Shown: positions 5,795 to 55,098 of the stretch, in pieces
How the letters are laid out: every line of letters begins with the position of its first letter
Numbering within the stretch: the stretch's first letter is position 1
From: Asterochloris sp. CNOR1
Taxonomy: Eukaryota; Chlorophyta; Trebouxiophyceae; Trebouxiales; Trebouxiaceae
DNA length: 64,000 nucleotides
Reading direction: 5' to 3'
NCBI GenBank assembly: GCA_963969365.1
Contig: OZ017757.1
Span: 2,666,001-2,730,000 of the forward strand
Position numbers and translations under genes: made by a program
Notes under the pieces: generated by a model
The model's input: the letters and a program-made list of their open reading frames with translations, nothing else
Database searches by the model: none
Told to the model about the DNA's origin: nothing

Positions 5795-8700
5795 TCACTT
5801 CACGTAGTGGTTGAAATAATAGCGCTGAGGGCATGTGGGGTCTGGCTGGATGTAAACGGGCCTGATGATCCTATCTGCAAGGATACAGTCGTAGTGTGGG
5901 AGTTCCGTGCGTCCCTCCTTCAGAGTGGCCCACTTGAGGCGCTGCATGCCCCTCAGCGGCCTGTCCTGGCGGCCTTTCAGAAGGCGTCCTTTAGAAGGCA
6001 GCCTGTTGCGAGTGTCAGCTGCATCATACCAGCGCACAAATGCTGCTGCGATCATCTTCCCGCTGTGGTTGCTTCTGTAGCTGAATAGCAGTCTGAGCTG
6101 TGCAAACCAAATCTGGTCAGCATTGCCCCTGCAGCACCAGTGTGATCTGGTGTATTGGCAGCAGGCCATGCAAACTTGAGCAACTAATATGGCCCAGCGT
6201 GACCTGGGTTTGGACAGAGGAGCATGCCTGATCATGGCAGGGATACCAAGCGCAGTGCGACCCTATCATGCAACCAAGCGGGCTGCTCCTTTTATCCACA
6301 TAACAAGCAGTCTTTGCGCTCACACCTGACTGCAACGTCATCAAAGACTGGGTGACCAGGGCTGCCAAAGCTTGGCGAGGCCCTCAATGTGGCTCCAACC
6401 ATATCATCGCCCACCCTGCGCTCATAGGCAACGCCCAAAGCTGAGCTAACCTTGACCTGCAAAGCATGCAAGGCACACGCAACATGCAGACACCAGACTG
6501 AACTTCACTTGGGAAGGCCATCAGTGGTGTGCATCGCATGCGGTGGGCAAGGGCCAGCTTAGATCCAGGGACTCCCAGGACAAGGGGGACCCTGCCCCCA
6601 CAGGGGGCACTGCCTCCACACCCCTGTCACATGTCACCCAATGGTGTTTGAGTGGCAGCTGCTACAGACACATGCCCGACCCGCACGACCAATAGCGCTT
6701 CAGCCTGCCACAGCTCCACACAGGCGCCAACTCGCGTGCTGACCTGACCTGACCTGTCGGACAACCCCGCAGGCGCAGGTTGTGCAGATTCTGCTCACCT
6801 TTGGATAGCTCAGCTTCGGCAGCCTTGCCAGCAATGTGGCCTCAGGGTCCTGGGGATTCCGCGTGGGGTAGCCTGCCAGCATGAGGCACACTGCTTTGTA
6901 GAGCTGTTGCAACTCTGGCTGTTGTTGCAGCAGCTCACGCTCTGTGTCACTGAGAGAGCCAAGTCTGTTCAGTGAATCCTGATGGAAGGCCCGGTAGTCA
7001 ACATCCCCGCCCCTGATTGTCATGTGTGGCAAGCCGGACTTGAGCGCCTTCTGGGCCTGCATGAGGCTGAAACGTTGTCAGTCACGACGCTGGCACAGGC
7101 TGAGCTGCCACAGGCTGAGTGAGCAGACTTGCTTGCTGGCCTGTCACAGCACTGCATGCACTGAGGCTACAAATGCGCTCACCACACTCATCGCCCTGTG
7201 CCCAGGCGCCTCATACATGTCCTCCTGAGCTTGCCGCACACCATCCAGTCGCCTGACCTGCTTGCTGATCTGCATCACAAGGATGTAGTGGCAACAGAGA
7301 TGCATAGCGCGCCACGGGCAGCACAAGCACACTCAGCATCAAGCTTTGAGATGTGCCACAGTGGTCAGCGGGGTCACACAATGAGCAGCACCTGAGAGCG
7401 TGCAGTCTTGCATGAGACTTCTGGCGGCCGAAAGTGTCCACAATCGTGTCTGGATGCAGCTGACGAATGCCATGCAGTGCGCAGACCTGGTTCATCAGGG
7501 TAGCCTTGTGGTTGTTAGTGAACAGCTTAGCTGCTTTGAAGTCCTTGTGACTGCGCTCCCCGTAGGAGGCACTCGCGATGGCGACGCTGCCAAACTCGCG
7601 AATGAGCTCCCCAAACTTGAACATGTCATAGAATTTGGGAAAAGCCCAGGACTTGTCCCCCAAGCCCACTGCCGCGCTCTGAAACCTGCAGTGTGGCGTG
7701 CACACACTGGGTACCAAGGCACCAAGGTGGAGCCTGGGCAATGCTGATTGCTGAACCATAGCCACCACCTAGCAGCGCTGATGTAACACAAGACTGCCCA
7801 GCCACCACAGCCGTCGTTGAACATGGCATGCTTTGCACTCATCGTGTGATGCTGTGGCGTACCTGACCCTGGCGTCTTGTACAGCTGCGATGGTGTGCTC
7901 GGTGTGTTGCCGCATGTCTCTGAGGTCACTCCACTCCATCAGAGCTGCAACACAAATCACAGGGGGGCCGTAAGTTATAGAAGCGCACTGAGGGCAGGCA
8001 GAGTGCCTCTCTGGCCTGAAATTGGCACCGGCAGTACAGGCTGGCCGTCAGTGAGCAAGGAGGGCCACTCTCTACTGCTTGAAGGCAGGCATGCTGAGTC
8101 ACCGTCAACCCAGCCCGTCAGCTGGGCATGCCACAGGCAGTGTCTGGTGGCCATGCATGTTGCCACGTTACCAAAGCAATTTCTGCAGAGCGTCCTTGCA
8201 CCTGTGAAAGCGTGACAGTAGGGCTCCATGTCCTCCAAGCCAAGCAGACACACGGGCATGCAAGCCCCCAGGCTGTGCCGCTGTGTTGCTGTGATGTTCT
8301 TGGCGACGAGGCGCTTGGCGGGCAAGTGCAGGTCCATGTAGGAAGGAACCTGCTTGAAGCGCTCCTTGACGATGTTGTACTGGCCACTGGCATGCAGTTT
8401 CTTCTCAGTGACGTCAAAGAGGTGCTTGATGAGGCCACAGCTGGTGTTGTGCATTGCGTCAGGGAAGACGAGGTGATGGCAGTCTACATCAGTGTTGAAC
8501 CCATATAGGCAAGTCTGCAGCGCCAAACTCGAGAGATGTCAGCATCACAGCACGAAAACGACTGCCTTGGATGGCAGGTTGCAGAAGAATGATGGGAGGC
8601 AACAGCTCAAATGTCAAGTTTGTGAGGCCCCTTCTGCAAATGAGGTCCATCATCAAGAAAACAACATGTATGCGTGCACCCACCACAAGGCAACAGGTCT

Positions 8701-11104
8701 TCAGGTAAGCATGGAGACCTTACCATCTCGGCCTCGTGGAGGGAGACCGAATCAAGCTTCTGGAGCGCCTCTTTCTCCTCGCCCTTCGCCAGCAGCGCCT
8801 TGGCAGCTTTGACCACCTTGCAAGACGGCACAACATGGGTTGTGTGAGGCCAGTGCAGCCTACATCACCAGGGCAGTCACCTGCCAGGCTGGGACTAGTT
8901 GGGCCTTGATAGTCTCAGGCTGGGCCTAATGGGGCCTCGATAGTCCCAGGCTGAGACTGTTTGGACCTCAGCAGTCCCATGCAACCTCATAAGTCAGCAC
9001 CCATCTACAGCCTGACCTGCTTCATGGCGGCTGCCGTCCTGGGCTCAAACGTCCTGTCGTACTGGTCCAGGCTGTCCTTGCGGACCAGGTCCCATGGGTC
9101 AGAGTAGTAGGCAGGGTGGTGCTTGATGTTCAGCAGGGCATTGGCGGCCTTGCGGTCGGCAATCCAGAAAGCTAGCAATGGGTAGCAACGCCTTTCAATG
9201 CCGTCTGCGTCCTTAAATATGGTGCCACTGCACAGCACATCGAGATTGTAGACTTCGCTCGACTGCTGCCAGACCAAGGCAGGAGGCAGGTGGCTGTTGG
9301 CCCCACGCAAGTCTGTCAGGCAGCCTGTGGTAGGCCACCTACAGAGTCTGGAGGCACAGTCATTCTGCAGCACCATGAATGCTGTCACTGGGTTGTGCTA
9401 CCTGCTACTGATCACCTGAAACTTGCTTCCTTCCAGTCTGCCAAGAAAATTCTGATGCAGACAGCATCCAGACGTCTCTGAAGATCTGAAAGCAGGCTGC
9501 AACAGGGGGAATGTTTCAACACCACAGTGTGTGCAGATGGGCGCAGCAGACAACACACAAATGTCTTCTCAGAGCAGAGAGAGTCTCTGCCAAGGGCTTG
9601 ACTTTGAAAGAGGACAGAAGTGTCAAGACTCACATGTTATCCCTTTTATCGTCTAGGTTGCTGCCTGGGAAGCTGCTGGCATCCACAGAGGGTAGCAGTG
9701 CCACACGGCGGTAGCCATCGCGCGACAGCATGTGGCTCAGGGGCTGAAGGGGGCAGAATATGACAACAGGGTGTGCTTTTCGGTCGCCATCTCGCTCAAG
9801 AATGGTGCCATCATTGTAACCAATCCAGGGACATACATACCCCTTTAGACGCTCCTGCACTTGGTGAGCAGCAAAGCAATTAGTCTGCATAGGTGCCAGT
9901 GCAACTGGTGTCAACACAGCAACTGTTGTCTGCAGTGGGGTGGCCAGTGCAGCTGGTGTGCAGCCCAGCAACATCTGTCCGCAGTGGTGCCTGTGCAGTG
10001 TTCAGCCAAAGCGAGAACACAGGCCTGCCTGATTGCGTCTCAGCCAATCTGCATTGTGGAATGAGCTCCAGACTCTGTCTCCAGCTTCTGAAAAGCAGTG
10101 GTTGCCATCCCAGGCAAGACGCCCTGCCTGCACATGCATGTTGCCATTGCAAGGCAACAACAGACGATATGCATTGTGGCTTGTATGATTCAAATGCAGA
10201 GTAGCACGCAGTCTGCAATGTTGCACAGCTACACAGCAGCATGAAGTGCCACTACACTGGCCTGCCAGACTCTATGGATCAGGTGACTGCACACCTTCCT
10301 ACTGCGCACAAGCTCTGCCAGCGGCTCCAAGGAAGCGCGGTACGAAAAAGGAAATGTGTACTCACTGCCTTTGACTACAATACTTACATGGGCAGGCTTC
10401 CAGTCCTGCAAATAATGGGACAGCCTCAAGTGCTAGCTTGAGGGGCAAGCCGAGTGCCAGCACATGTACTGCAACAAGCCGCCAGACTTTGAGAGACTGG
10501 CAACCACCCACCTGGGCTGCGTTAATGTCTAGATACTGGTTGAACTCCTGGGCATTCCTCCACGGCACGTTCTGCGGGTTGAAGTTAGGACGTGCAATAT
10601 GCGCAACACTGCATCCTTGGAGGCTGTCGGCAGGTCGGCGAGAGCATCCCTGAGGAGCCTATACTCCTCTGGCAGGCTGCCAATGGAGTTGTCTTCACAA
10701 CCTGTGTCATCAGGGAGCCCAGGCAGGGGCTCGGCAGCCACAACAGCAGGTGTGAGAGCCTGCTCATACTGCCTGGTGAGGGGGTTGAGCGCCAAGCCAT
10801 CTGCCAGCTGCAACTCAGGCTGCAGCTCTCGCTGCTGTTGCTGTGAGGGCTGTTGCTGGTCTAGCTGCTGAGGCTCCTCCCAAGCATCTGCACCTGTGTC
10901 TGGCAGATCATCGTTTCCATCATAGAAATGAGCAGTGTCATCAGCTGATGGTGGCTCCGACGCCGATGGTGAAGTATATTGCGCGGAAACAAGAGCCCTT
11001 CGCTTGCGGCACTTTGGTAACGACTGATGCAATCGCAGGGAATGCTCTGAAAAAGGGCCCTGACCGGGACACCAGTCACAAATCTGCGAGCCGTTCGCTG
11101 GCAT
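5795..11104 (-). CDS. Plavaka-like transposase, multi-exon and probably decayed
   Basis: From the ATG at 11,104 the minus strand encodes, in order: a C2H2-type finger (CDWCPGQGPFSEHSLRLHQ, then a further Cys); an acidic and Gln-rich linker; blocks NVPWRNAQEFNQYLDI (10.5 kb) and DWKPAHVSIVVKGSEY (10.4 kb); core blocks near 9.85-9.65 kb and 9.3-9.0 kb; FPDAMHNTSCGLIKHL plus a lysine-rich stretch (8.5-8.3 kb); WAFPKFYDMFKF followed by GERSHKDFKAAK (7.7-7.4 kb); and a C-terminal RIIRPVYIQPDP motif with the stop at 5795. A finger at the start, the 'D-x-LH..G..KHL' and 'PK-H..ERxHKD' signatures and the 'IVRPVxLxP' tail are known from Plavaka/KDZ-type DDE transposases of fungi and algae. I could not join all exons in phase. 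A frame change near 10,590 suggests decay. Exact exon borders are not given for that reason. Confidence 0.65.
8887..8979. repeat. 31-bp minisatellite, three copies
   Basis: Three head-to-tail 31-bp units, each starting CAGGCTG and ending near AGTCC, lie in a non-coding part of the transposon. The same unit recurs at 17.8 kb outside the element. Confidence 0.8.
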
Positions 11105-11177
11105 TCGCGAAAAAAAAGGAATGTTGACTTGGCGCTCTTTGACCGACGGGACTGCTCATCAGTCTGCCCATCCCAGC
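11105..11177. promoter_or_regulatory. Bidirectional promoter candidate inside the transposon
   Basis: The transposase ATG (minus, 11,104) and the second gene's ATG (plus, 11,178, or an in-frame ATG at 11,121) are 16-73 bp apart. The gap contains an A-run (AAAAAAAA near 11,110). Such closeness implies shared transcription control, or that the plus-strand gene starts at the inner ATG. This is inferred from geometry. Confidence 0.4.
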
Positions 11178-14098
11178 ATGAGTCAAGCAGGACCTAGGAG
11201 GCCTCCAGACCCCACCTCCTTGCTCAAAGGGAAAAAAGCGCGGAAGACAGGGAGCTGCTCAACACCCGGCGGGTCCACGGTACGCAGCCTTCCCAGCTTC
11301 ATCAAGCAGTCCCGGCAGATGTCCAGGGTTTGACCACTGAGTAGGCATCTGTGCTGTGCAGACACAGAGCGAGGCCACTGGCGTGCTGCAGGAAGCAGTG
11401 AGTCCGCAGACTGCCTTCTAGATTGCATCACCTTCCATGCAATGCCTGACAAACTGAGGGCGCTTTGCGCATTGATCATCTGAACTGCAGCAGGGGACCA
11501 AGTGTGGTCATTGCCCCATTGGATGCCAGTGGCCATATTGGAGTTCTGAGGCTGCTCTATTGACATCAGGACATGCAATGCCAGACAGCGATGTGCCTGT
11601 GCAGGTGTCACCTCGCCGTGGTGCTGGTGGCACAACCCAACATCCTTCCGGCAGGACTACCACTGTCGTGCCTGTGCTGGCGCATGAAGAGCTGCCTAGC
11701 CCTGAAAAGGAGCCAGGTTGGCCTCTGAATGTCTATGCACAGCTCAGAAATGTGCACTCTGTCCTCTTTACAATGCACCAGCCCGCCCTTGCAAGCTCCC
11801 ATGTTGTCAGCGCTAGGTGCTATATTGCTGGTGTGCTCTGCAGACAGTACATTTGAGGACGACCCAGAGTTCAGATTAGCCCGCAAACAGTATGCGCTGC
11901 TAAGGATTCACGTGAAAGAGGCACGACAGCTGGCAGCTACCCTCGATAGCCTACCAGACCTGTTTGCAGAGGTCATCCAGCGCGATAAGGTCTGGCTTAC
12001 AGCAGTCCTGCCTAGCTGCTGCATGCACTCTGTGTGCAGACTGGTTCCAGCCTCAGCTTTCTTGCTTCAAGCGAGGTTGGTGCTCCCCTGACTGAAAGCA
12101 CTAACCTGACTGCTTCTCCCAAGCTTTTGCAAAGCAACGCAGGGCATTGCTGTTGCTCCTGTAGGCTGGCTCGGGCAACACCAGAACCAAGAAAGACGAC
12201 AAGGGGGTGAGGCCCCCATGTCCCTGTTGCATGATCGGCAGTGGATTCTGCCACTGTGCGCTTGTGGATGAGCCTGGCCATCGGTGTGCTCATGTCAGCT
12301 CCTAGCTTGACCTCACGTAGCATCCTGCCTGTGCATGTGTGCGTGGTTTGCTTGAGGGCTGGAGCTGAGCCAAGCAGTATGCCATTGCCCTGGACTGAGC
12401 CAAGCAAATTGTGGGTGTCCATGAGAACTCTTGCGTGTCTGATTTGCAGCTCAAAAAAGACTTTGATGGGAAGTGTGAGGCGTACATGATAAGCAACACC
12501 TTCTTCCCTGATGAGCGTGACTATGAAGTGGTAGCAGCCATGGTGATGGGCTTTGGAAGTGACGCCAATGCTGCTAGGCGCGCCAATGCGGACCTGCTCA
12601 TCCAGCTGCGTGACCGGGTGCGTGCATTCATGCACAAAAGTTCCTAGTGCAAAGCCTTTATTACACTGAGGTTCCTTATTGCTAGACGTCCTGCAGGCTG
12701 TCAGTTCATGTGGCTGCTATTCTTTTATGTCATGTTTAACACTTACCCAGTACACCTCTTTGCTGGGTTCAGATGTCTGTTGCATATCCTGCATGCGCTG
12801 CAACTTGCCAAGCCTTCCTCCCGCAGCTCAGCACAAGAGTTGCCTCCCGCAGGTCATTACAGGAAGATATGAACAGGGGTGGGACCATGCTACAGTTGGC
12901 TGTCATGCCATGCAGGGCAGCAGTAAGGCCAGAGAAGTGCGAACCGCACTCAGCAAAAGGATCAAGGACGCCATGACAGACGCCTTCTCCTGGTACCAGA
13001 ATGCTGCCATGGTGACCAAGTGGGGCCCGTCGGTCTACTACTGGGAGGAGGTGGATGGCTCCAAGGAGCTGCAAATGAATCAAGAGGTGGCGCTGGGGCT
13101 GGCAGAAGGCAAGTTTCTTATTGTCATGCAAACTTACCCTGGCAATGACTGTCAAACCGCTTGCCAGCTGCCTAGCTTGTCATGGCAGCGCAATTTGCAC
13201 TGCAACCCGCTGACCAAGCACACACCTACAGTCGGTTTGATGCACACTGCTTCTGGCACTGTTTGACGCCCAAACCTGCTGTATGTGCAGGTGGGACCTG
13301 GTGCTCTTACCAAGAGCCGGGCAGCAACAACCCTGGTGAGCAACAAGGGGATGCTGACCCCTACGGCTTTCCCCCATTTGTGGACACAGTACAGTCTGTG
13401 CTGGACCGCCTGCCAGATGAGGATGGCAGGGTCCCAGTCACAGCTGCGGAGATAGCATACGTGGGAGTTATGGTGAGCGAACTATGCCTCACCTATTGGA
13501 GTTTCTCATTGGCGGGCCCATGCTATAGCCCAGGCCATGTTGCATCAGCGTGTGCCTCCTCAGGTTATATCCGGCTTGCTTTGTGCCACCTGATGCCACC
13601 TGCTCCCAACACTGCACCGTGTGTCGCCGTGGTTTGCAGGTTCAGTTCCAGCTGATATCTGAGACTCCAAAAGCTGCTCTGCCACAGCGTCTTAATGAGC
13701 AGGGTCCCATGAGAGACTTGCATAAGATGTTGCTGGATGACGCTCAGCACAACCTGCCCTTTTCTCGCCGGTTCAAGAAACGTTGCTGCCCTGATGCCGA
13801 GCAGACGCCTCAACAGGTACTGCTGATGCGCCTGCTGCAGTGCTGCTGCCTCAGCCTCTGTCACGAGCTGCACCTGGCAGCAGATGCAACACCTGTTTCA
13901 CCTCATCTGAAGAGTGTCTCTGAAGTATGTGACCGTCGGACGCCCTGCTTCTCAGCGTTGCAGTTTGTGCGGCTGCAGGCACGCCCTCGTAACCGTTCAG
14001 CTGTACAGAGCAGGCCTGCCCCAGGATCACAAGCGCAGCCGTCAACAGGAGGGCGCCCCAGGGCTCCTACATACATCAGCACAGACCTCAGCCCCTGA
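11178..14098 (+). CDS. Second gene of the transposon, 434 aa, unknown function
   Basis: Nine exons join in phase: 11178..11279, 11605..11716, 11844..11989, 12165..12206, 12450..12617, 12853..13108, 13291..13472, 13640..13816, 13979..14098 (1305 nt including TGA). The N-terminus has a basic KGKKARK motif, a likely nuclear signal, and a Pro/Ser/Thr-rich linker. The middle is mixed alpha with WGPSVYYWEEVDGS and DPYGFPPFVDTVQSVLDRLP. The tail is Arg/Pro/Ser-rich. Intron 6 would use a GC donor (GAAG|GCAAGT). Two points are uncertain: exon 5 could instead read on to a TAG at 12,645, and the last exon could start at 13,962 (also phase 0). No known domain is recognised. Position inside the inverted repeats and head-to-head with the transposase suggests an accessory transposition or regulatory protein; that is inference. 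Confidence 0.6.
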
Positions 14099-27432: not shown

Positions 27433-41765
<14,333 letters not shown>

Positions 41766-42492
41766 GCTGGCACTCACGATGGCGATACCGCAGGGCACGA
41801 GGGTGCTTGCTCAGATACAGGCGATTACACTGATGCTCAAACTACGGTGCCTTCTCAGATTGCCGCTGCAATCAAGCCACGCTGCAGAACCTGTTTGCAG
41901 AGTGAAGCTGCTGTCTTTCTAGGTATTTGCCTTCCTTCTCAAAGCTTCTCAGAGCTGACCAATGATGTCATCATGGACATCATGTTGCTTCTAGTCATTG
42001 GGTCGTCTTACAGGAAGCTGCTCTACCTCTGTCAGCACTTCAAAGTCACTGCATCTAAAGAGATATCGCCACGGCACAGCAAGGATGAGTCTGCAAGGAT
42101 CTCTGGTGTACACCTTGCCTGAGCGCAGTACAGCTGCTGCAGCAGGCGTGATTGAGTGCGCGGCCACAGCCAAGAGCGTGCATTTGGGGGGTCAGAGGGA
42201 CGGGTCCTCGAGAGGGCGAGGTTTGGTGCGTACTCACTGGGCATTCAGATGAGGATCTAGCGGGCTGTGCTGTCGCACTGCTGGCATGTGGCTGTATCAA
42301 AATGACCATCACCTGAAAAGTCGCTCGGTTGTGCGGCACAAAAAAGACATGAAAGGTGTTGATCAATGAGAGAGGGAGGCTGCTGCAGCTCTGCTGCATT
42401 GCACAAACCAAGACTTTGTGAGACTGAGTACCTGGCCGGGGAATGGGCCGGCTGTCCTGTCGAGTCGACCTTCGCTCCAGCTGTCTTGCTTC
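41766..42492. other. Spacer between two minus-strand genes
   Basis: Contains the CDC48 5' UTR and promoter and the 3' UTR of the DUF3110 gene. I see no TATA box and no supported gene; a 60-codon minus-strand frame at 42,173-41,991 is probably chance. Confidence 0.4.
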
Positions 42493-45400
42493 TCAGATGT
42501 CAAAGAGCCTCTCCAGGCGGCGCTTGGCCTGCTCCAGTTCCGACAGGTGTTCAGAGCCATAGGGGCCGGCATTGTTCTGCATGCTCCCCACCGAAGGGTC
42601 CTGCACGCCTGAAGGGCTGGTGTCGCCAATCATGCGCCACAGCCCATTCCTGCAAGACAGAAAGTGTGGTTTGCAGACTTACCAGAGAGCATAAGCTGCC
42701 TGGCTTGGAGGTCGTGGCAGGTGGCAGCGTCACTGAAGAGGCGGTGCACAGTTGCTACAGGCGGCACTGCTAGCTGCTGCAGTCTGTCTTGACTGCCCAG
42801 CCGTTGAGGCAGGTCTGTACAGGGGCAAAGGGTGCAGCAGCTGTGGGCAGTAACAGCCCGCCCATCTGGGCAGCCCCCTACCAGGTTGTGCTTCCTGGCA
42901 ACCTAATTTCAAACCTTTGGAAAAAATCTCAGCAGCTGCAGGTGCCCACCTGAGCCGCAGGGAGCGCTCCCAGTCGGTCACACTCACATTGTAGTCTGGG
43001 GGGATGAAGTGGGTGCCAGCTGCCTCCAAGCGGCAGTTGTACCCATGGTCTTCACAAAACTCTCGGAGTTCGGCTGCACCGCAGATGGAGCGTTTTCAGG
43101 CTGAGAGCAGAGGGGTACAGGCCACACACTCTCTGCCTGCACCAGCCTGTGTGGATGCTGCAGCCTCTTGAGTGCTGAGGGTGCACACCTGGCTGGCCCG
43201 CAGCAGAACATGCGCAGCTGTCAGCCCAGAGGCAGTCACTGCACATGGTAACTGCATGTGCACCAGGAACTTGCCTTGTCAGAGGGACACCAATGCAGAC
43301 TTGCACGCTGTGTGGCAAGCCTAGAGCAATACTTGGCTGTTAAACTGCAACCTCTCTCCACTGCTGTTGGCCTGGCAGCACAGCACCCCAGCTGGGCTTC
43401 TGGTGCCCTCCAGCAGGGTACCATGGCAGGCACTGTCAATGCATGCACCATCTGCAGAGGGGGCTGTACCTGGCGAGATGGGCACCACATCTGGCTTGTG
43501 GCTCATGGTGGCCTCCAGCAGGGTCGCATAGCGCTCTGCGTCCTGCAGGCACTCGAATGCCACGATGGTGTCTGTGGGCACCGTGTCATCGTCTGTGAGG
43601 GCACGCAGGGAGTAAATTCCCTCAGCATCTCCGCTGTCCACGCCAAACAGGATGACGTGCACCTGCAGGCAGAGGGTGGCAGAGTTGTACCTTTGGCAAC
43701 ACTGTGCACGCCTCAGAGAGGGTGGTGGTGATGTTTGGCAGATCTGTCTGGCCTGAGCGAGAAGCAGGGGAGCTTCCTCGCATCATTGCACCCCAGTGGC
43801 GCTGACACTGTTTGCGTCTCGCCTTGTTGTCTTGGCTTGTATTTCTGCCTATGCTGATGACGAGTGGTGGTGGTGAGTGGCAGTGCTGTCTGGCTTGAGT
43901 CAGCAGTGACTTTCACATTCCACTCTATAGAATATATGCTTTCCTGCATAGCAACCTTGTGGCCCTGCAGCAACGTGCACCAGCTTCTACTTTCTTAGGC
44001 TAATGTGCCTGTCTGAGTGAATGGACATTTGTGTACCGTCCCCTGCCATCAAGGCAGAAACCACCAAAATGATGCTGAGGATGCCTCATCCACCCATGCC
44101 AGGACAACGTTGCGCTTTTCACGGCCGTAGTAAATGACTAAATCAGCTGTGCACGCTCATTGTCTTTTGGCTACACTACTGGAGAGTCCCTTTCAAGCGG
44201 TGCTGAGTGTCGTGACGGGCAACCCCTCTGGCAGACAACCAAGCCTGTCCCCTGGCTAAGTGCCGCTTTGCCGCCAGCAACAGCAACCAGCTTGCAGACA
44301 TACAGCAGACACTGCTGGCAGTAACGATGCAGGCACCTCCGCGAAACAGATTCAAGCAATGCAGCTGGCCCCCCTACACCACAGCAAAACAGCTCACTGG
44401 ACCCAGCTGTCCCAGGCAGCTCTCCCAGTGCGCTGAACCTGGCACAAAGGGAAGCCTACAACTAGCCTGCGGGAAGAACGCAACCACTGCCAACTGCAGC
44501 GCACCTCTGCCAGGCCGCTCCAGGGATCTGCATGAGGATTCAGGTTGTACTCTCCCAGCGGCCGCTGCTGGTGGCGCTGCCACCGCTCCACGCGCTGCAA
44601 CTCGTTTGCATCCCCGCCTGGCGGAAAACTGGGGAACGGGGTGTACTGGTTGTCAGGGTGCTCAGGGTGGTCTGCAGCCACAGAGACCGGCGCTTCAGCA
44701 CATCATGTCTGGTAGTGTGGGACCAATACCCCTCCCTTCTGTTGCCAGATCTGAAGTCTGTGCATGGCAGCGGCGACCCCTTGGCCAGCCAAGGGAGGGG
44801 CAGGGTACTGGCCACCTTCCCCTGGGCAGCTCAGGGCTCAGATCAGACCCCCACGCATTGGCTGCATGCCACCTGACGTGTCTCCCGCCTCTGTGGCTGC
44901 TTGAGTCCTGTCTGCGCTGCTGCTGTGCAGCTGACAGCCAGGCCTGCGCTTGCTCCCACTGACGTCAGCCCTGGCCAGACCATGACAGTGATAGTGATAT
45001 TGACTCGCAGCAGGTGCTCCTGATGGCGCTACCCTCAGAAACTCAGCAGAGCCAGCGAGCAGCTGAGTCCAGGCAGCAGCGCCATTCAGGCGTGGGGATA
45101 CTATGCTATTGTGCTAGGTAGCCTGCTGCCCAGCCTGCTGGGTCACGCCCCTAAAGCAACCTGCCGCTGGTCCATTGCTCCACCTTGCTTCGCCAGGCTT
45201 CAGACATCTGCTGAGACGCAGACTCCTCTCCTGAGACATGGGCACTTGCCTGCTGGAAGGTCCGAAGGCGTGTCAACAAAATCGAAGGTGCTCGTGCTAT
45301 CCCAGGGCGCCTGCTGGGAATGTGGCAGCAGCTCTGGGCTGGCAAAACTGCTGTCGGACCTGGCATGCCGCTGCTTCTGCACAAATTTCTGCAGAGGCAT

Positions 45401-46399
45401 CAGGGGCAGGTGAGTTACTGGCTGCCATTGCTGTGGAGAAGCCTGTAAGACTTTAGCAGCATCTGCCATCATACAGCAGCAATGCCCCAGGACACTGCCA
45501 GGCCCTCAGCAGCACCAAGTTCTTTAGACTGGCTGCGTCAACAGATGCGACCGCTACTGTGTGAGTCATCATCTAAGCAGACAGCTCAGCGAGAAGCAAT
45601 GGTGGTGGTCGAAGCTTGTGCTTTGGGGATGGGAGGCGGCCATTGCTCACCCCCCACTCTCTGTCAACGTCCAGCTTGGCATGATGGTGCAGGCTGTCGC
45701 CGAGCCCGCCCCCGGTGCTGCTGTGCGCGCAGATCTGTGCAAAGGCGCGCTTGCGGCCATGAGGCGTCGCTCTTGAACCTGCAGGGAGTGCAATGCCGGG
45801 TTGTCAGCTCTGCTGGACTCAGATTGACAACCTTGAATGGAGCACGAACTCTGACTTTCAACATCCCTTGATCGACTCCGTAACTAGATGACACCTGCAC
45901 CTTGCAGCTGTGCTTGTAAGGATGAAGCAGGGCTGCATATTGCTTGCACAGTGAACAAGGACAGAGCTGCATGAAGTTCTGTTAGACAACTTTGCCAGGA
46001 CTGTCAACGAGCGCAGCAGGATGTCAAGGACAGCTAACCAAGGCTGCTGCCATGCAAGAGCAACCAGAGTGACCGACCCCCATCCGGTGAGATATTGGCC
46101 TGAGCAAGAAAGCGCAGGATGTTCGAGAGGGCCCCCTGCCGACATCCGAGGCGCTGGCACCAGCTCCTTGTAGCCCCTGGTGAATGCCTGGCAGAAAGCA
46201 GCTCACCCTGCCAGCAACCGCACCCCCCTCGACAGAGAAGCCAGTCTGCAGCCGCTTATGGCCGCTGCAGTCCTCTGGCACCCAATGCTGGTGCAGCCTC
46301 ACCTTCCCAGCGATGGCCGTCCTCCCAGCCAAAAGTGAGGCTGCTCCAGGTGTGGGTCTTGAACCCCTGAATCCGATGGTCAGGCACCTGCGGCAGCAT
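42493..46399 (-). CDS. DUF3110 protein, probably plastid-targeted, about 334 aa
   Basis: Six exons join in phase: 45778..45651, 45388..45250, 44671..44505, 43662..43470, 43073..42950, 42649..42493 (TGA). A first exon 46399..46303 fits in phase and gives 1005 nt in total, but it is tentative because its peptide (ATG then LPQVPDHRIQGFKT) is not a typical transit peptide. The DUF3110 core is HVILFGVDSGDAEGIYSLRA through FECLQDAERYATLLEATM, followed by ELREFCEDHGYNCRLEAAG and VSVTDWERSL, as in cyanobacterial and plastid members. Biochemical function is unknown for the family. The exon ending at 45,250 has a GC donor (CAG|GCAAGT) supported by phase on both sides. Upstream exons are Ser/Pro/His-rich and likely disordered. 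The gene is head-to-head with the WD40 gene at 46,600. Confidence 0.8.
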
Positions 46400-46599: not shown

Positions 46600-49500
46600 A
46601 TGGCTGATGAAGAAGCAGCTGCTGCTGCCAAGGTGGAGCTCGAGCAGTACAACAAGTAAGCATGGTGCCTGAGCTCATGCAGGCACTGGCATGAGACCGC
46701 CCATGACTGGTTTCACATGATCTTGAGTCGCCCCCTGTGGTGCAGGTGGAAGCTGCTCATCCCCTACCTCTATGACTGGTTTGCCAACCACAACCTGACC
46801 TGGCCCAGCCAGTGCTGCAGGTCAGCGGCAATGGCAGCATGCATCGCCAGTTGCTGCAAACAGCACTTCAGCTGGCAATGCTCATCCAGTGCTGTATCTC
46901 CAGCGCGGGCTGACGTTTCAGGGGTGCTGCCTTGCGCCAAAGTGCCGTCCCTGCTGCTTCTTATCTGGCGTCAGGTCAGCGGCCTGCTCTGCTTGTGAGC
47001 TTTGAGCATACCTGCCTGCTGCCTGCAGATGGGGCAGCGTGATTGAGGAGCAGAGCTACAAGCGCACCCAGCGCCTGTACCTCTCAGAGCAGGTGCAAGG
47101 AAAGGCTGGAGCATTGCTGGGAGCTAGCTGGCTGTTACTCAGGCAGCTGCTTCCAGGCGCACTTGAAATGCCTGAAGGCTTGCGCAAAATGTGCACTACA
47201 GAAGCTGCCTGCATGGGCAGCAAGGTCCTGAACACCCTGCACTGGGAAGAGGTCGTCTGCGCCTGAACCCTTGTCTCTCTGGTGCTGTGCAGACTGACGG
47301 AGGCGAGCCCAACAAGCTGGTTGTCCTTAATGCCACAATTGTCAAGGTATGGCTACCTTCCCTATCGGGCTTCCAGGCATACAGTCCACATTGCTTTGCC
47401 AGACAAGATTGGCACAGGCCAATTGAGCACGGTCAGTGCGGGGCAACCAGGTCTTCCCATCTATCATAGATGGGGACGAAGGCCCTCATGTCTGCCTGTG
47501 CAGCCAGCAGCGTGCTGTGCCTGCCTTGTCACCAAAGCGTGCTGTGAACAAGCAACCCACGTTGGGTGTGCGCCCTGCAACACCAAGCTTGGCACAGTCC
47601 CTCGCAGCTGGGCCCATTGTAGCACCACCACTAGCTCATCAAATTTCAGCTTGGCCTTGCTGAAGCAGCCGAGCTTCCAAGCGTTGCATCATCAAATGCG
47701 CCCAGGCCGCTGTTCAGCAGCCGAGCTTCTGAGCCTCTTGATATGATTGAGCTTTGCATGATCCTGAGCTTGCAAGCTGCTGCAGTGTCGGTCAAGACCA
47801 TGCTGCCTTCTTCATTGTGTGCACAGCTCCCATAGAGTGCAACGTGTTCTCAAGATTGCGCCTGCTTGCTTGCAGCCGCGAGTAGCCTCTGCCGAGGTCA
47901 TTGCCAAGTTCAACCCAGCTGGCAAGCACCCGTCCATCAAACCCTTCAAGACCATCTACCACCCTGGGGAGGTGCGCACCTGCTGCAGATCCCAGCCAGC
48001 TTAGGCTGCCTCCTTAGTGCATGCACCCAGCACGCCTGGTGTCTCCTGATGGACTTGAGAAGCAGCTGCCTGTGACAAGATTCTGTGTACCGTAAGCTAG
48101 TCTCTGCCGCCAGCATGGAGCAGCATTGAGCAATGAGAACACCAGCATGTTGCAACCGGACAGGATTGCACCTTTTTTGCTCACCTGTGGTCGCTGTTCA
48201 CTGCTCCTTCCTGTGAGATGGATAATCAGGCTTGGTTGTTTCAAGTCAACAAGGTTTGGGCGGCAACTCTCAAGGCTGTGTGGTCAATGTCCTCCCCATC
48301 CGCCTCCCATGGCTGATTGTGTTGCGTCCTGCAGGTCAACAAGATCCGGGAGTGCCCCCAGGAGCCCAGCGTGCTGGTGACCCACACAGACGCCCCCGAG
48401 CTGTACGTGTGGAGCACAGAGCGCCAACACAACAGGCTGGGCGACACGGTGAGCAAGCAGGGCTGTGTGCCTCACGCGGCAACCATACCTCCTTCAGCAC
48501 AGGATGTTTCATCGGGTTTGCGTGAGGCCCTGCTGGAGTAGGTGCACCCTGGAGGACGTTCAGCTTTTTAGGCTAGGCAAGGCCTGCCAGGCGACGAACC
48601 CATGCCAGGATGTGCTTCCGTCCTGCGCGCCTGGCTTGACTCCAACAGAACATAAGGGTCTAAGTAACATGTGCAAGGCCTTGCTGGAGCATCCTGCAGT
48701 CTGTCCAGCTTCTACGGCCGTGCCAGCCCTGCAGGGCGATTCATCCACCTCAAGCTGTCTTCTCTTGCCCTGTGAAGCCCACAGGAGAGCTTAGCTGTGA
48801 GCCCTACAGCCCTGACAACACCGCACCGGCACCTTGCACACTGTTTTGCACCTTGCCATTCCTGGGCTCCAGGGCTCCCTGAACACTGGCAGGCAGGCCT
48901 CCTCACTCTCAACGAAATCAAATATTGATGACAGTCAAATCATTGCTGTATGTGCCTGCAGGACAAGGCGCCCAGCAAGCCGGACCTGGTGCTGGCAGGG
49001 CATGAGGACGTTGCACCCTTTGCCCTGGGGACCTGCCAGCCAGAGCCGTTGGTGGCCAGTGGGGGCAAGGACACAAACGTGAGCGCCACCACCGGCCTCA
49101 GCCGACACGCCTGTTGTGGCCTGGCAGTCAGTGTTGTCTTGCATGTGCAGCGCGGTGGCTGGTGCAGCTTGGCTGTGGGGCCAGGGTGCCACTCGTGAGC
49201 ACAGGGCGTGCCACCGCCAGCACCTGCAATGGGTCCTGCTGGCCTGCCCTGAGTGGGTGATCCAGTGGTCTAGTGCATGCTGCAGCCCTGCTGGCTCCTG
49301 CCTTGTCATGGTAGAGTGGCTGTGGCACTCTGCCAGCAGGGGAGCTTTCATGCTGGGGCTGTGAGGTCAGCCGCCCTGCGCATGTCCAGAAGCCCACGTA
49401 GTACCTGGCTGGCAGTTTCTTCTGCTGCCGCTGTCATGTTACAGGGGGTGTGGTAAATGTGTTGCATTGCAACACGCGCAGAGAGTCAGCAGCCAGTCCC

Positions 49501-52500
49501 TGGCAGGAGGCACCAGCTTCGGGCGCACTCTGTCGTGGAGTGCGCGGCAGCCAACCTGGGTCCGACACTGCCCTCCAGTGCTGCTTTGCCATTCCCATGT
49601 TTAAAAACACTCATTTGGAGCGTGACCGTATAGTCTGGGGGGTTGCCATGTCTGATACGACAGCCAGCCTGGCGTGTGCTGCAACCCCCCATCCTTGGCT
49701 GCTTGAACGGGAACTGTTTCCGTTGCCTGCAGGTGCTGCTGTGGAGCTTGAGCAGCTTGGATCTGCTGAAGTTTTCCACATGCCCAATTTGCGGGAGCAA
49801 GATCCTTGCTGCTCCCTGCAGATGCTGCTGCAGAGCCTAGCAGCAAACTTCAACCCAACATGCAGCAATCACTGCGAACCAACCACTTGTGTTGCTGGCA
49901 TTGCAGGTGCTGCTGTGGAGCCTGGGCGACCACGTCTCCACCCTGGCAGACGGCACTGCGGGCTCCTTTGACGGCGTGGAGACCCGAGTCGCAGCACGCA
50001 CCGTTCTCAAGGTCAGCATCAGGGACCTGCTGTGCGTTGTGCTCCTCATTATTTGTTTAGCTGAGATGGCTGCAGCCCTGTCGCTGGGGGTGAAAAAGAC
50101 CTCGCCTTTTGGGATACAACCAGGGCTGCGCTTACCCTCTGGCGTGTCCTGCACCGCAGGGGGATAGTAACAAAAGGGGGACGTTTCAAATAGCCGCACA
50201 GTTCCTCTGGGCAGCTCATTCATACTGCTGCTCATGCTTACCTACCTGTGCAGAGGCATGGCACCACCTGGGACACCGTGCATGTTTGCTTGCCACCCAT
50301 GCCGCGCTCGCCCTGTCACTGCTTCAATGCGATCGCCTGCTGCCTGTGCAGGGGCACAGCAACACATCAGGGGATGTTTTGTGTCAGCCTGGCATCATGC
50401 TGCTCTTGCCCTGTCACTGCTCCAATGCAGTCGCCCACTGCCTGTGCAGGGGCACAGCAACACTGTGGAGGATGTCGTGTTCCAGCCTGGAAGCGCTGCC
50501 GAGCTGGCCTCTGTGGCGGACGACTCAGCCCTCCTGCTGTGGGACACGCGCTCAGGGACAGGCCCCGTCCTCCGGGTGGCTGATGCCCACGGCACAGGGG
50601 ACGCAGGTCCCCTGGACCTGCATGTGGTCGACTGGAATCCTCTGCGGCCAGAGCTGCTTGCCACTGGTGGGACACTGGTGGTGAAGGCTGTGAGTTGTGA
50701 AAGTGGAACCCTCCGCGGTCTGAGCTTTTCGCCACGAGGTTCATGCCGTAGGACCGCCAGATCTGAAGGGGGCAGATCTGAAGGCGTCACACCAGTCTCT
50801 CACGCCAACACTCATCGCAGCTGTCAGCCACTGGTGTGTGGGGTGGTGGTGGTGGTGGCAAAGTTTCAGAGTCCATGGTCAGTCATGTTCACGGCAGCTC
50901 AGGCACCTCAACCTGTGAGCTTCGTCCTCAGGTGGAGTCCATGCTGTGAATGTCTCTGCCAGCGTGAACCTCTGCCGACTACAGGCGCCTCTGACGGCAG
51001 CGTGCGCGTGTGGGACCGGCGGCGAATGGGTGGTGTGGGGGCGCAGTCGCTGCATTCCTTCGGCCTGCACACGGGCGCTGTCATGAGGGTGGAGTGGTCC
51101 CCCCAGGTGGGCAGCGCTCTGCAGTCCCAGCATCCCTTCTGGGCTTTGCTACCTGCCATGGCTGTGGCCTGCATTGCGGCGGCGTGGTGAGGGTGGAGAA
51201 GTCATCTCTGGCGGGCGAGCACTGTGTCTGTGCACATCTGCTTGCTGCATCTGTGGCCTGCATGGGGGGGGGGGCGTGTCCAGAGTTGGAAGGTCACTTC
51301 CCAAGTCCATAACGCGGCTTTTGCAGCATCGTTGCTGTGCTGCTTGCTGCCTTCGTGGCCTGCACAGGGGCGGCAACGTGAGAGGTGAGGGGCCACCTCT
51401 GGCGGGCCTCACTCTGCATTTCAAGCACTGTCGCTGGGGTTTCTGCATGCCCCACTGTCTGGCGCAACAGCTGTTGCCTGCACCTTGGCCGACCAGGCCC
51501 CACAGCTGTCTGCACTGTACTGCAGAACGCCTCGGTACTGGCCAGCGGGGGTGACGATCGGCGCATCGCCATCTGGGACCTGGACCGAGCAGCGTCAGAG
51601 CCCCCGGCTGGCCTGGCCGCCTCGCCTGAGAGCAGCCCCCACAAGCACAGGCATCCCCCGCAGCTGCTGATGCAGCATGTGGGGCATCGGGCGCCGGTAA
51701 GTGAACAGCAGCAGCGCTGTCACCATTGTCACAAGCGCAGGCCTCCCCCTCAGCTGCTGCTGCAGCATGTGGGGCACGACTGCCGGTGAGTGCACAGCAG
51801 GAAGTCATCTGGCTTAGGCAGTCTTCCACATTGTGGATGACCACTCTCTGACAACGCAGCGTGACAGTCAAGCCACAGCGTGATGGCATGCTGCCCAGGA
51901 CTGCAGGCTGGTCAAAGACGCACAGCCCCTGCCACACGAGCTTGCAGTGACCCCAAGATGGTGTCACACTGTGCAGCCAATCGGTGTGTGCTCTGCCTGC
52001 AGACCACGGACTTCCAGGGAATCACTAGGATCCCTGACCTTTGAAGTGCGGTGGCCTCCCAAACACCATTCACGCTGTGCAGCCAGCTCAGCTCATTTTG
52101 CCCTGCCTGCAGATAGTGGACTTCCAGTGGAACCCCCACGACCCCTGGACCTTCATGAGCGTGTCTGACGATGTGGGCGCCGGCCTGGGGGGCGGCACCC
52201 TGCAGCTCTGGCGCGTCAACGACTTCCTGTACCGCCCTGAGCATGAGGTGCTGCAGGAGCTGGAGGAACACAGGTGGGCGACCGACCAACAGCAGGCGCA
52301 TCGCATACAGAGTGGTTGGGGGTGGCAGTACTGGAAAGACATGCTGCCGGAGCATAGTTAATGCAAATCACTCTCATCCAGAATGCTGGGCTTGGCAGAT
52401 GCCAGCTCCCCCAGATCAGCAGTGAAGGCACAGGAGGCAGCAGTCTGCCAGAGAGAAGCACTCAACAGGGTTCTGCATGGTGTGCTGCAGGGAGTCCCTG

Positions 52501-53220
52501 ATCACGGGGGCAGAGCCCAGCTCCCCCAAGTCAGCAGTGAGGGCGCAGGAGGTGACGGTCAGGGCTGAGGCCCCCGCAGCCGCATCCACAGGGCCGGCAG
52601 AGGGTGCAGGTCAGCAGTCACTGGGGCTGCACCTGGTCATGGTTCTGGTCTGCAAGACATAGTTGGAACAAGGGAGTGTGCCTTCTGGGCGTTGGCTTGC
52701 TTGGCTGTGGTCCTGTTCAGCTGCCTGTGACTTGCAGCACCCCCACTCCTCGTAGGTGGCTTGCCACCTCTGATGGGTCCTAGAATGGAGTACAGGCTGT
52801 GAGCAAGCACCAGGTGCTGTGCCAACCGCCCCCCTCACCATTGTATGCTTAAGGCCGGCTGTATGCTGTGCTGGGCCTCAGGCTGCGGTGCAAGGCGCAC
52901 TTGTCCCTGGGCGGACGCCTGAGCCGGGCAAAGCTGTACTGCTCCAGCGGAGGGCCCCGCACTTTGGCGCCCCTGCGATCAGTCATGCCGCAGCTGCCTG
53001 ATGCCGGCCAGTCTGTGCTGCTGCAGCAGATGGCCACCCGGCAGTGAGGCCCGTGTCGGTCGGACCTGAGGCCGTCAGCTCCCACCAGCCGGCTCAGACA
53101 GCCGCCAGCCACGCCAATGGGGCCGCCCAGGGCGGGGTGCACTCCCAGCTGCTGCCGCCCCTGCCACGCACACTTGCCCCTGGACCAGATACCGAGATGG
53201 CTGGTCCCCCTGGCAGCTGA
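46600..53220 (+). CDS. MSI4/FVE-like WD40 histone-binding protein
   Basis: A nuclear seven-bladed WD40 protein of the RBBP4/MSI1 class, a histone H4-binding subunit of chromatin-assembly, deacetylase and Polycomb-type complexes. Exons: 46600..46655, 46746..46820, 47029..47092, 47293..47346, 47876..47971, 48335..48448, 48962..49078, 49907..50011, 50450..50666, 50985..51106, 51526..51696, 52113..52273, 52491..52603, and a tentative last exon 53027..53220; 1659 nt, 552 aa. The N-terminal helix WKLLIPYLYDWFANHNLTWP, CCRWGSVIEEQ, RLYLSEQTDGGEPN and KTIYHPGEVNKIRE match plant MSI4/FVE rather than MSI1-3. WD motifs include LHVVDWNP, GSVRVWDRRR and RIAIWDLDRA; the last blade is DFQWNPHDPWTFMSVSDD. 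The Pro/Ala/Ser tail after LEEHR is longer than in plant FVE; without the last exon the frame stops at 52,662. Introns carry several copies of adjacent splice sites. Confidence 0.9.
49727..49850 (+). repeat. Two echoes of the MSI4-like exon 8 start
   Basis: The true exon begins TGCAG|GTGCTGCTGTGGAGCC at 49,907. Upstream, TGCAG|GTGCTGCTGTGGAGCTTG occurs at 49,733 and TGCAG|ATGCTGCTGCAGAGCCT at 49,822, at spacings of 89 and 85 bp. Both retain a usable AG acceptor. Confidence 0.85.
50240..50450 (+). repeat. Two echoes of the MSI4-like exon 9 start
   Basis: The true exon begins GTGCAG|GGGCACAGCAACACTG at 50,450. Copies begin at 50,352 (GTGCAG|GGGCACAGCAACAC) and 50,254 (GTGCAG|AGGCATGGCACCAC), exactly 98 bp apart each. 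The unit also includes the upstream pyrimidine tract CCCTGTCACTGC. Confidence 0.9.
51160..51410 (+). repeat. Three echoes of the MSI4-like exon 10 end
   Basis: The exon end GGCCTGCACACGGGCGCTG and TGAGGGTGGAGTGGTCC recurs at about 51,166 (GGCCTGCATTGCGGCGGCG, TGAGGGTGGAG), 51,258 and 51,357 (GGCCTGCACAGGGGCGGCAA), about 97-104 bp apart and progressively diverged. Confidence 0.75.
51730..51795 (+). repeat. Echo of the MSI4-like exon 11 end with its donor
   Basis: CACAAGCACAGG through CAGCATGTGGGGCATCGG and the donor CCG|GTAAGT (51,697) is repeated 89-90 bp downstream as CACAAGCGCAGG through CAGCATGTGGGGCACGAC with donor CCG|GTGAGT (51,786). The sequence between the two donors is open in the coding frame. 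Confidence 0.9.
51969..52056 (+). repeat. Echo of the MSI4-like exon 12 start
   Basis: CTGTGCAGCCA, CTGCCTGCAG and GGACTTCCAG recur in the same order at 51,969-52,018 and at 52,075-52,130; the copied acceptor is at 52,003 and the true one at 52,113. Confidence 0.85.
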
Positions 53221-54121
53221 CCTCGGAGGTGGGATCAGCTGACTGGGCGCACAGCACGGCATCCCATGATAGACACAGAGGTGCATGCTGATGCCCCCGG
53301 GCCCCGCAGAAACAGCTGCCATCTGCTTAGCAGGCACCAAGCATGCAGATGAATATCCCAGATGCTACTAATCCCCAGGGACAGCGGCCCTCTGCAATGA
53401 CTTCTGCCTTAGGCAGACATCCTCTGCCCGCTGCCCATTCTGAACATCTTGACAGACAGTTGCAGTTCAATTGTCCAAATGCCTGGCCCCCTGACAGATG
53501 TAGCTAATCAGCATGATGCTGGGCAGCCGCACAACTCATATGGAGTTCTTACAGGCTGCTCAAACTGGATGTCATCTACTTTCTCAAGTGCCTCCATGAT
53601 AGGCAACTATGTCACATAGTGCTGCTACCCTTTGACTTCCGCCAGCTGCAAGAGCTGTTGTGAGGAGCTTTTGCAGCCTTTCTGGAATCCATTCAGGATG
53701 AAGCTGAGGGCTGTCGGTCCTGATCAGGTCCTCCGTGCTACAGGCACTGAGGGCACAGCTTGCTGCTGTGTTGTGCAATGAGACGCATGGGGTGAGATGA
53801 CAAGGTGCAGGACTTCTGAGCGCCACCTGCCCACAGCTGGCCTGCTGATTGCTGTCGATGCTGGGTGTCTGTTGATGGCAGAAGCACTGCCATTGCTGCA
53901 TCTGGCAGATATAGCTGTTGCATCTGTCAGCAAGAATGTAAAAGCAGGCACCACAGCCTCACACAAGGGATACACCTGCTGAGCGGCCTGCTTCTTACTG
54001 CCTCGCTCTGTTGTTTTAGGTGGGCTGTAAATTGTCAAGCGCCACATCAGACATCAAACTGATGCTAGGTTCAGTGCCCAAGAATGCAAGTGACGAGAAG
54101 TGATCTTCACTGCAAGATTGC
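53221..54121. other. Intergenic region
   Basis: Contains the end of the WD40 gene and the start region of the PDZ gene. A minus-strand frame from about 53,740 to 53,584 reads SPQLHPEWIPERLQKLLTTA and ends in TGA. It looks protein-like but has no partner exon, so I do not call it a gene. Confidence 0.35.
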
Positions 54122-55098
54122 ATGGCAATGCTCATGTCACGAGGCCACGGGCTGTGTGCCCATGGCCTGCAAAGGCAGCCTTCATGCAGGGCAAGACCAC
54201 TTTCAGCCCATCAGAGAAGACACTGGGTGGCAGCTGCTGCAGGAGGGTGAGGCCTCAAAATGACTGCCTGAGCCCTGTACTTTTCAGCACCCTGTCTCAC
54301 ATTGCCTGATGCTTTGCAGGTTCCAGCCTGGGCAAAATGCACGTTCCACCACTGAAAGCGGGCAGCAGCTTATCAAAGTGAGCACCTGAAGCCATAGTAA
54401 CTCTGCTCAGACAGTTCTGGGGCTATCAATGTATTGCTGCCTGCAGGTGACCATCAGGAAACCTCTGGGACTTGTACTAGGAGAAGCAGAGCGTGGTGGG
54501 GCAGTGGTTGTTGAGGAGATAGTGCAGGGCGGTAATGCTGAGCAAACAGGGGTCGTCCAAGTGGGCGACGTAGTCAGTAGGTGCGGCTTTGACAAAGCCC
54601 AGCAGGGTCTCTTCATGTCAGCATGCAATATTGAGACACATGCCCAGCAGCAAGTGACTACTGCATCTTCTGAACCTGTGCTGTGCTGCCTTCAGGGTCA
54701 GCGCGACTGTGCTGAAGGAGGGCAAGTCCGGCCAGTATCAGCGTGAGGGGTATGGCAGCCAACCTTATTCCAACTTTGAGCAGATCATGTTTGACTGCCA
54801 AAATCAGGATTTCAAAAGGTGGGGTTTGTACCTTCACAAAGCTAGCAGCCACCAAATCTCCCTGACCTGCCCGATTTCTCTTTGCTACAGTGTGATGGGA
54901 GCAATTGCCAGCAACAATGAGCGGTGAGGCAGCACCTGCAATGTTGCAGCTTTGCCCCTGCTGGGTGGCTGCACATGCGGCCAAGCTTTGCTTGCTTGCT
55001 GTGCTTACAGGTGGGGCATCATGAACGTCAGGATGGAGTTTGTGAGGGACAATGCATCCACAGAGAAGGCAACATCTTCTAGCCCTGAATCATCATGA
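54122..55098 (+). CDS. Chloroplast-type PDZ-domain protein, 186 aa
   Basis: Six exons join in phase to 561 nt: 54122..54246, 54320..54377, 54447..54580, 54696..54818, 54891..54923, 55011..55098 (TGA). The first exon is rich in Arg, His, Ser and Ala and lacks acidic residues (MAMLMSRGHGLCAHGLQR), as expected of a plastid transit peptide. A PDZ domain follows: VTIRKPLGLVLGEAERGG with the GLGL-type carboxylate loop as PLGLVLG, then GGNAEQTGVVQVGDVVSR. The C-terminal part (YQREGYGSQPYSNFEQ, FDCQNQDF, GAIASNNERWGIMNVRMEFV) is typical of plant chloroplast PDZ proteins such as the PDZ part of MET1/ZKT. The TPR region of MET1 is absent, so it is not a direct equivalent. A role in thylakoid protein complexes is inferred from the family. 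Confidence 0.85.

Follow-up and report, generated by a model that had tools for sequence, protein, structure and literature searches.

Do introns lengthen, or even arise, through local duplication of the exon edges that border them? The question is raised by a 64,000-nt stretch of the green alga Asterochloris sp. CNOR1 (contig OZ017757.1, positions 2,666,001 to 2,730,000; hereafter the window, to whose plus strand coordinates refer unless a contig is named), in which a predicted gene for an RBBP4/MSI-like WD40 protein carries, in successive introns, copies of the edge of the adjacent exon together with its splice site. A sequence-only reading had reported such copies, here called echoes, at the six consecutive borders of exons 8–13, and had proposed that introns in this lineage grow or arise by repeated duplication of exon edges. 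The echoes are real and extend beyond this gene, and we consider it probable that introns were lengthened by old direct tandem duplications spanning a splice border, whose inner copies have been decaying as echoes ever since.

Copied exon edges in one WD40 gene

The first 460 residues of the gene model, which has 17 predicted coding exons, are supported by alignment to RBBP4 chains in PDB (phmmer E = 9.7e-57 over residues 7–417; other chains to residue 442), and the alignment crosses the junctions from exon 1 to exon 12 (for example HVGHRAP/IVDFQWNP and TVLK/GHSNTVEDV). Exon 13 (residues 451–490) is predicted only; exons 13–17, from position 52,491 on, lie outside the support of the RBBP4 match, and the 3′ end of the model may be a fused neighbor.

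Both edges of the 16 introns were tested (32 tests) against 200 mispaired controls each, which sets a floor p of 0.005. Introns 7–12 (49,079–52,490) each contain at least one copy of the neighboring exon's edge and seven exon edges there reach the floor, confirming the copies at successive borders of exons 8–13. The other ten introns yield no more than an 11-base match and a marginal one of 16 bases; the former is the eighth edge at floor p (intron 46,656–46,745), and its p is 0.045 with a second scoring.

Most of the individual copies in the sequence-only reading were recovered (Table 1): those of the exon 8 acceptor at 49,733 and 49,822, the exon 11 donor at 51,786, the exon 12 acceptor at 52,003 and the exon 13 text near 52,401. 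The strongest in the gene lie at offsets of 98, 90 and 115 bp from their sources. Exact 98-bp steps had been described at the exon 9 acceptor: the copy at 50,352 is solid and the outermost, at 50,254, is weak. Likewise the exon 10 end, thought to be copied three times, has one clear copy and one weaker one, while the exon 9 end has an echo that had gone unlisted. The proposed decay of copies with distance does not always hold: the pattern is irregular, and the far copy at 49,733 is more like the exon than the middle copy at 49,822. A tandem-repeat scan by itself detects only the 98-bp pair in this gene.

Table 1. Gene models and echo copies in the window, with the evidence for each
Feature	Position	Strand	Evidence
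RBBP4/MSI-like WD40 gene, 17 predicted coding exons	46600..55098	+	gene finder, PDB sequence match
Exon 8 acceptor-edge echo, decoy acceptor 49,733	49728..49753	+	24/26 identical to 49,902-49,927, offset 174
Second exon 8 acceptor-edge echo, decoy acceptor 49,822	49817..49842	+	20/26 identical
Possible older third copy of exon 9 acceptor region (50,254)	50224..50293	+	weak: 28/70 vs chance 18.2, standard deviation 3.9
Exon 9 acceptor-region 98-bp tandem copy, decoy acceptor 50,352	50298..50392	+	78/95 identical to 50,396-50,490
Exon 9 end (donor side) echo	50704..50735	+	25/32 identical to 50,633-50,664; p at floor
Weaker exon 10 end copy	51166..51226	+	matches 51,062-51,121; blastn E 0.5
Exon 10 end and donor-region echo	51346..51427	+	70% of 84 identical to 51,049-51,132; blastn E 2.8e-4; p at floor
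Exon 11 end echo with donor, decoy donor 51,786	51730..51800	+	62/71 identical to 51,640-51,711, offset 90
Exon 12 acceptor-edge echo, decoy acceptor 52,003	51964..52041	+	61/78 identical to 52,070-52,153
Exon 13 text echo (exon 13 predicted)	52394..52437	+	38/44 identical to 52,509-52,552, offset 115
CDC48 gene	27,433-46,399	-	gene finder, alignment to CDC48 homolog A

Echoes across the sampled genome

The genome comprises 56.4 Mb in 21 contigs, from which we sampled 304 kb: the window, 200 kb adjoining it on the left and 10 kb from each of four other contigs. Gene models came from a small hidden Markov model gene finder written and trained on these 304 kb, which returned 33 genes with 504 introns, whose median length is 325 bases. 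Removing 12 introns (longer than 1500 bases or with N nearby) left 492, and removing another 38 that share their first 60 bases with a different intron left 454; tests on exon sequence alone require 40 exon bases, available at 416 acceptors and 412 donors. A lax first scoring (match 5, mismatch -4) gave alignments of about 55% identity across whole introns, and its counts were discarded.

Under strict scoring (at least 72), the 454 introns and their flanks contain 174 local direct self-matches (shuffled controls give 0.5, mosaics assembled from other introns 18.5), and 101 introns have at least one. Exon-only echoes occur at 25/416 acceptors and 29/412 donors (mispaired introns: 0.25 and 0). 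The counts persist when the RBBP4/MSI-like gene is left out (22/400 and 28/396) and in the 200 kb outside the window (18/299 and 19/292). The fraction of introns with an edge match rises from 3/61 below 100 bp to 27/86 at 600 bp or more. The description of echoes as pervasive therefore stands in that they are found well beyond the gene in which they were noticed, and falls short in that they affect 6–7% of edges at this stringency and not all borders. Three echo-bearing intron pieces had no other copy in the 56 Mb genome among the best candidates, the only ones scored. Inverted self-matches also occur within introns, in 29 of the 454.

Geometry of the copies and a proposed mechanism for intron lengthening

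Exon-edge matches are almost all direct (54, with 2 inverted; 25:1 on the acceptor side and 29:1 on the donor side), and they are local: 160 of the 174 self-matches have an offset below 250 bases in a search that allowed up to 800. Position is equally one-sided. In a set of 330 internal exons, the upstream intron repeats the opening 40 bases 17 times and the downstream intron not once, and the closing 40 bases reappear 20 times downstream and twice upstream, so that recurrence at the exon's own border exceeds recurrence in its other intron by 37 to 2. Acceptor echoes match acceptors, donor echoes match donors, and both include intron sequence: identity over 14 bases on the intron side is 0.44 for 18 acceptor echoes and 0.45 for 20 donor echoes (baselines 0.28 and 0.26). 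Since the intron side was copied along with the exon edge, the border predates the duplication. Homology over the full offset is seen in a minority (for example offset 98 with 95 aligned, and offset 75 with 77 aligned), and the median ratio of aligned length to offset is 0.48 for 70 edge pairs and 0.44 for 64 interior pairs. In exons of at least 200 bases, the frame is kept in 13/15 local duplications.

These features are consistent with growth of introns through local duplications that cross their borders, as the sequence-only reading suggested, and the copies probably originated at the level of DNA. In the mechanism we favor, local direct tandem duplications, commonly of 60–200 bp, would strike at positions unrelated to splice sites. 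Those falling within an exon would be purged unless they kept the frame and those within an intron would be neutral, while a duplication spanning a single border would be nearly neutral provided that the outer site (the last acceptor or the first donor) remained the one spliced. The inner copy, consisting of an exon edge, its splice site and a little intron, would then become intron sequence and decay, with the exon copy staying under selection. Each such event would leave the intron longer by one unit and would deposit in it an exon-edge echo with a decoy splice site.

Are borders preferred targets? Enrichment at borders over intron interiors had been put forward as a test of the idea, and the outcome depends on the null. 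Under a naive sliding null there is enrichment: 35 acceptor-edge pairs against 16.5 expected, 19 donor-edge pairs against 15.0, and 90 interior pairs against 112.5. The exon copy is conserved, however, so edge pairs stay detectable longer than interior ones. Once this slower decay is included, in a survivorship simulation of random tandem duplications that leave the protein unchanged, the edge share is 0.44–0.49, near the observed 0.56 by intron (59 edge, 47 interior, where one intron may count in both) and 0.52 by pair (70 edge, 64 interior). Across twelve age and indel models the share ranged from 0.42 to 0.97, and one old-cohort model gave 0.52 with roughly similar fragment statistics. As modeled, border-spanning copies would be about as frequent as random duplications of roughly 100 bp that survive with the protein unchanged; no special attraction to splice sites would be needed to produce the observed edge share, and a modest attraction would also be compatible with it.

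Age, clustering and the case against

If one copy of each pair stays in the exon, mismatches should concentrate at third codon positions, because the exon copy alone is under protein selection. Across 75 echo alignments mismatch is 0.192, 0.186 and 0.231 at codon positions 1–3, a third-position excess ratio of 1.22 (95% confidence interval 1.08–1.37, phase-shuffle p = 0.0018), in keeping with silent change in the exon alongside drift of the echo. Most of the events are probably old. A fit of match scores to age, which assumes perfect copies at birth and is to that extent model-dependent, finds hardly any events younger than 0.15 substitutions per site per copy; the size of its oldest bin is poorly constrained (bootstrap 10–90% ranges of 26–530 and 0–858 events). 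A constant rate is rejected under two indel settings (chi-square 135 and 104 over 14 bins): it predicts 27 and 24 best matches scoring at least 300 across two classes, and 2 are seen. Under these models either the duplications would be mostly old or the copies would have been born imperfect, and the data are compatible with both.

Echoes are also unevenly distributed. The 66 echo-flagged introns (of 454) include a longest run of six, in the RBBP4/MSI-like gene (p = 0.007), where 1.66 echo introns were expected; between-gene variation alone gives p = 0.065.

Several observations weigh against lengthening by old tandem duplication as set out above. First, full-length tandem pairs are too few: among edge pairs of at least 85% identity, 16% of 19 align over 70% of the offset (interior pairs, 5% of 21), whereas constant-rate tandem models predict 68–89% full-length edge pairs, and only an old cohort with frequent indels approaches the observed fragment statistics. 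Second, two copies of equal age should give a stronger third-position signal than the one seen, and the 36 least diverged of the 75 alignments show none (0.103, 0.134 and 0.128 at positions 1–3). Third, echo introns adjoin one another more often than a uniform process predicts: 19 adjacent pairs were counted against 9.4 expected from length (p = 0.0004) and 12.1 under within-gene shuffling (p = 0.0045). Fourth, exon borders outside protein-supported genes are predictions; five other supported genes give small counts (2/69 acceptors and 7/68 donors, with 0 and 0.75 in mispaired introns), and the four other contigs have 0/55 acceptor and 6/57 donor echoes. Fifth, local duplications look about nine times rarer between genes (1 in 15.9 kb, against 85 in 156 kb of introns), which is a hint from a small sample of 20 gaps on contig C12 and the four others; if true, it may mean that transcription matters for the duplications.

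A bolder version of lengthening by tandem duplication would hold that long introns here were built in good part by an ancient and largely stopped wave of border-spanning and intronic tandem duplications of about 100 bp, roughly one per intron and concentrated in certain genes or stretches. The spliceosome would have tolerated such a wave because an outer splice site prevails over an identical inner copy. This version we offer tentatively, as an idea that we think has only some chance of being right. Quantal growth of introns was considered and set aside: of 60 periods tried for intron length, 66 bases scores highest (z = 4.6, where the 95% maximum is 4.1; 108 bases, z = 3.1), a periodicity too weak for that claim.

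Alternative explanations

The alternative that survives best is repair-templated copying, in which a break in an intron is filled with a short, error-prone copy of nearby sequence (end joining with templated insertions, or synthesis-dependent strand annealing). Such copies are expected to start out short and with errors, with a spacer between them and their source. They would account for the median alignment covering less than half of the offset, the small number of high-identity full tandems, the scarcity of near-identical copies (which could mean imperfect birth) and the lack of a third-position excess in the closer echoes. Local repair-mediated duplications that include splice sites have been described in human (PMC2671141), and four of the donor sequences in that report's table are partial exon/intron. 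On our own reading, proximal capture of this kind should land in either orientation and at any nearby site, and free capture over a few hundred bases should also reach an exon's other intron, which is more distant by roughly one exon length (mean 180 bases). The near-exclusive direct orientation and the confinement of echoes to their own border run against both expectations, and we regard repair-templated copying as unlikely, if worth keeping in view.

We think it very improbable that selection maintains the splice sites in echoes for a regulatory role, as competitors or poison sites, even though some of them are strong. As the sequence-only reading anticipated, the echoes do supply decoy sites, and some are of high quality: by position weight matrix, decoy acceptors 49,733 (100th percentile of predicted acceptors) and 49,822 (99th) outscore the real acceptor, and decoy donor 51,786 stands at the 52nd percentile of predicted donors against the 31st for the real donor. 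Apart from 49,733 and 49,822, the four remaining decoys fall at the 15th–65th percentile of predicted sites, with acceptor 52,003 at the top of that range. Use of any of the six decoys tested is predicted to give an early stop, which is what a poison site should do (added lengths 174, 85, 196, 98, 110 and 89; decoy donor 51,786, which adds 89 bases, leads to a stop at residue 427 of 674). What argues against selection is that retention of the sites, which had been singled out as a feature of the copies, is no more than neutral one-sided decay predicts: AG is kept in 13/18 echoes (12.9 expected) and TGCAG in 9 (8.0 expected). Donors are below expectation, with the dinucleotide kept in 12/20 (15.0 expected) and five bases in 5 (10.1 expected), a hint of selection against competing donors. 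Offsets also lack a clear frame preference (remainders 0, 1 and 2: 13, 13 and 18 on the acceptor side; 15, 7 and 10 on the donor side, where 15/32 gives p = 0.08). From their sequence, the decoy sites are best read as by-products of the duplications.

Intron gain by tandem duplication across an AGGT border is a mechanism established elsewhere (PMC3443670, PMC4974935), and the sequence-only reading had invoked it here. A gain of this kind should leave donor and acceptor matching in register. At a score of at least 40, no such match was found in 375 introns (1.08 expected), and at a score of at least 36 there were 3 (2.4 expected), in a test blind to gains so old that their flanks have decayed. 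The sole intron with a repeat offset within 5 of its length is C12:31,539-31,657 (119 bases), which lies in an array of approximately 62-bp repeats. The echoes, moreover, pair like sites with like and carry intron sequence with them. Intron gain is therefore a highly doubtful account of the echoes. The array itself (C12:31539-31910, outside the window) covers a pair of short predicted introns (119 and 142 bases) along with the exon that separates them.

Finally, chance similarity, low complexity or wrongly placed exon borders are scarcely credible: our home-made gene finder does fuse some neighboring genes, some of its predicted introns must be wrong, and an earlier version without a minimum exon length mistook echo copies for exons, but the shuffled and mispaired controls lie near zero, and both protein support and the codon-position signal point the other way.

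Other features of the window and the sampled genome

Several further gene models have protein support. The CDC48 model aligns with CDC48 homolog A across 718 residues with no net change in length, and four more predicted proteins match kinase, HECT ligase, WDR19 and NUBPL-like families. A tandem array of 209-bp units (3.8 copies, 80% matches) occupies 34143-34930, in the predicted CDC48 intron at 32,884-35,969. Positions 8001-12000 of the window match C12:170345-174344, inverted, at 100% identity along 4000 bases, and C12:180786-184779 at 99.7%, reflecting a recent segmental duplication, a mobile element or an assembly artifact.

Acceptors are mostly TGCAG (426/492 predicted introns), stricter than the usual YAG. 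GC donors number 52/492 among predicted introns and 7/91 in protein-supported genes, three of the latter with the strong form GCAG/GCAAGT; if the models are right, this share is high. Exon-level matches to the chlorophyll a/b-binding family, 31 in all, show the genome to be that of a photosynthetic eukaryote, and a WDR19/IFT144-like gene on contig C8 suggests a flagellate stage. A protein search against phage records gave no match. Genome size and intron density resemble those given for Asterochloris glomerata (56 Mb, 9 introns per gene; PMC6652019).

Relation to known systems and significance

Small tandem duplications are reported to arise at staggered DNA breaks through repair (PMC8355091), and the events described here share with them a local, direct and small character. 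They differ in being mostly old, decayed traces, many with a spacer, that cross splice borders and would lengthen introns. Intron gain by tandem duplication (PMC3443670, PMC4974935) likewise involves tandem duplication that touches exon–intron structure. In the potato RdRp case the duplicated piece is an intron–exon structure, and the same gene has an 83-bp intronic duplication (PMC4974935); here, an old intron would become longer and no new intron would be made. Repair-mediated proximal capture (PMC2671141) also produces close, short duplications that include splice sites, and is set apart by the one-sided orientation and own-border position found here. Introners (PMC9860276) pose the same question of how introns come to contain related sequence, but the three echo-bearing pieces searched for here are single-locus among the best candidates scored.

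Both ingredients are known, namely that small tandem duplications occur and that noncoding DNA tolerates them; they do not explain the accumulation across splice borders, the clustering or the apparent age. No report of border-spanning duplications as a source of algal intron length was present among the literature matches listed, in a search mostly outside subscription journals. The mechanism of intron length in chlorophytes is left open in a comparative Chlamydomonas study (PMC8226300), and an ancient wave of duplications, if true, would supply one.

Because it evolves slowly, the exon edge serves as a ruler: it lets old duplications in introns be found, located and approximately dated at ages at which purely intronic ones have faded. 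The same echoes carry a practical warning, as gene predictors may mistake them for exons. If the pattern proves genome-wide, border-spanning duplications would be absorbable without change to the protein, natural sets of duplicated splice sites could be used to ask on what basis the spliceosome picks one of several near-identical copies, and it would become possible to test where the long introns of compact green algal genomes came from.

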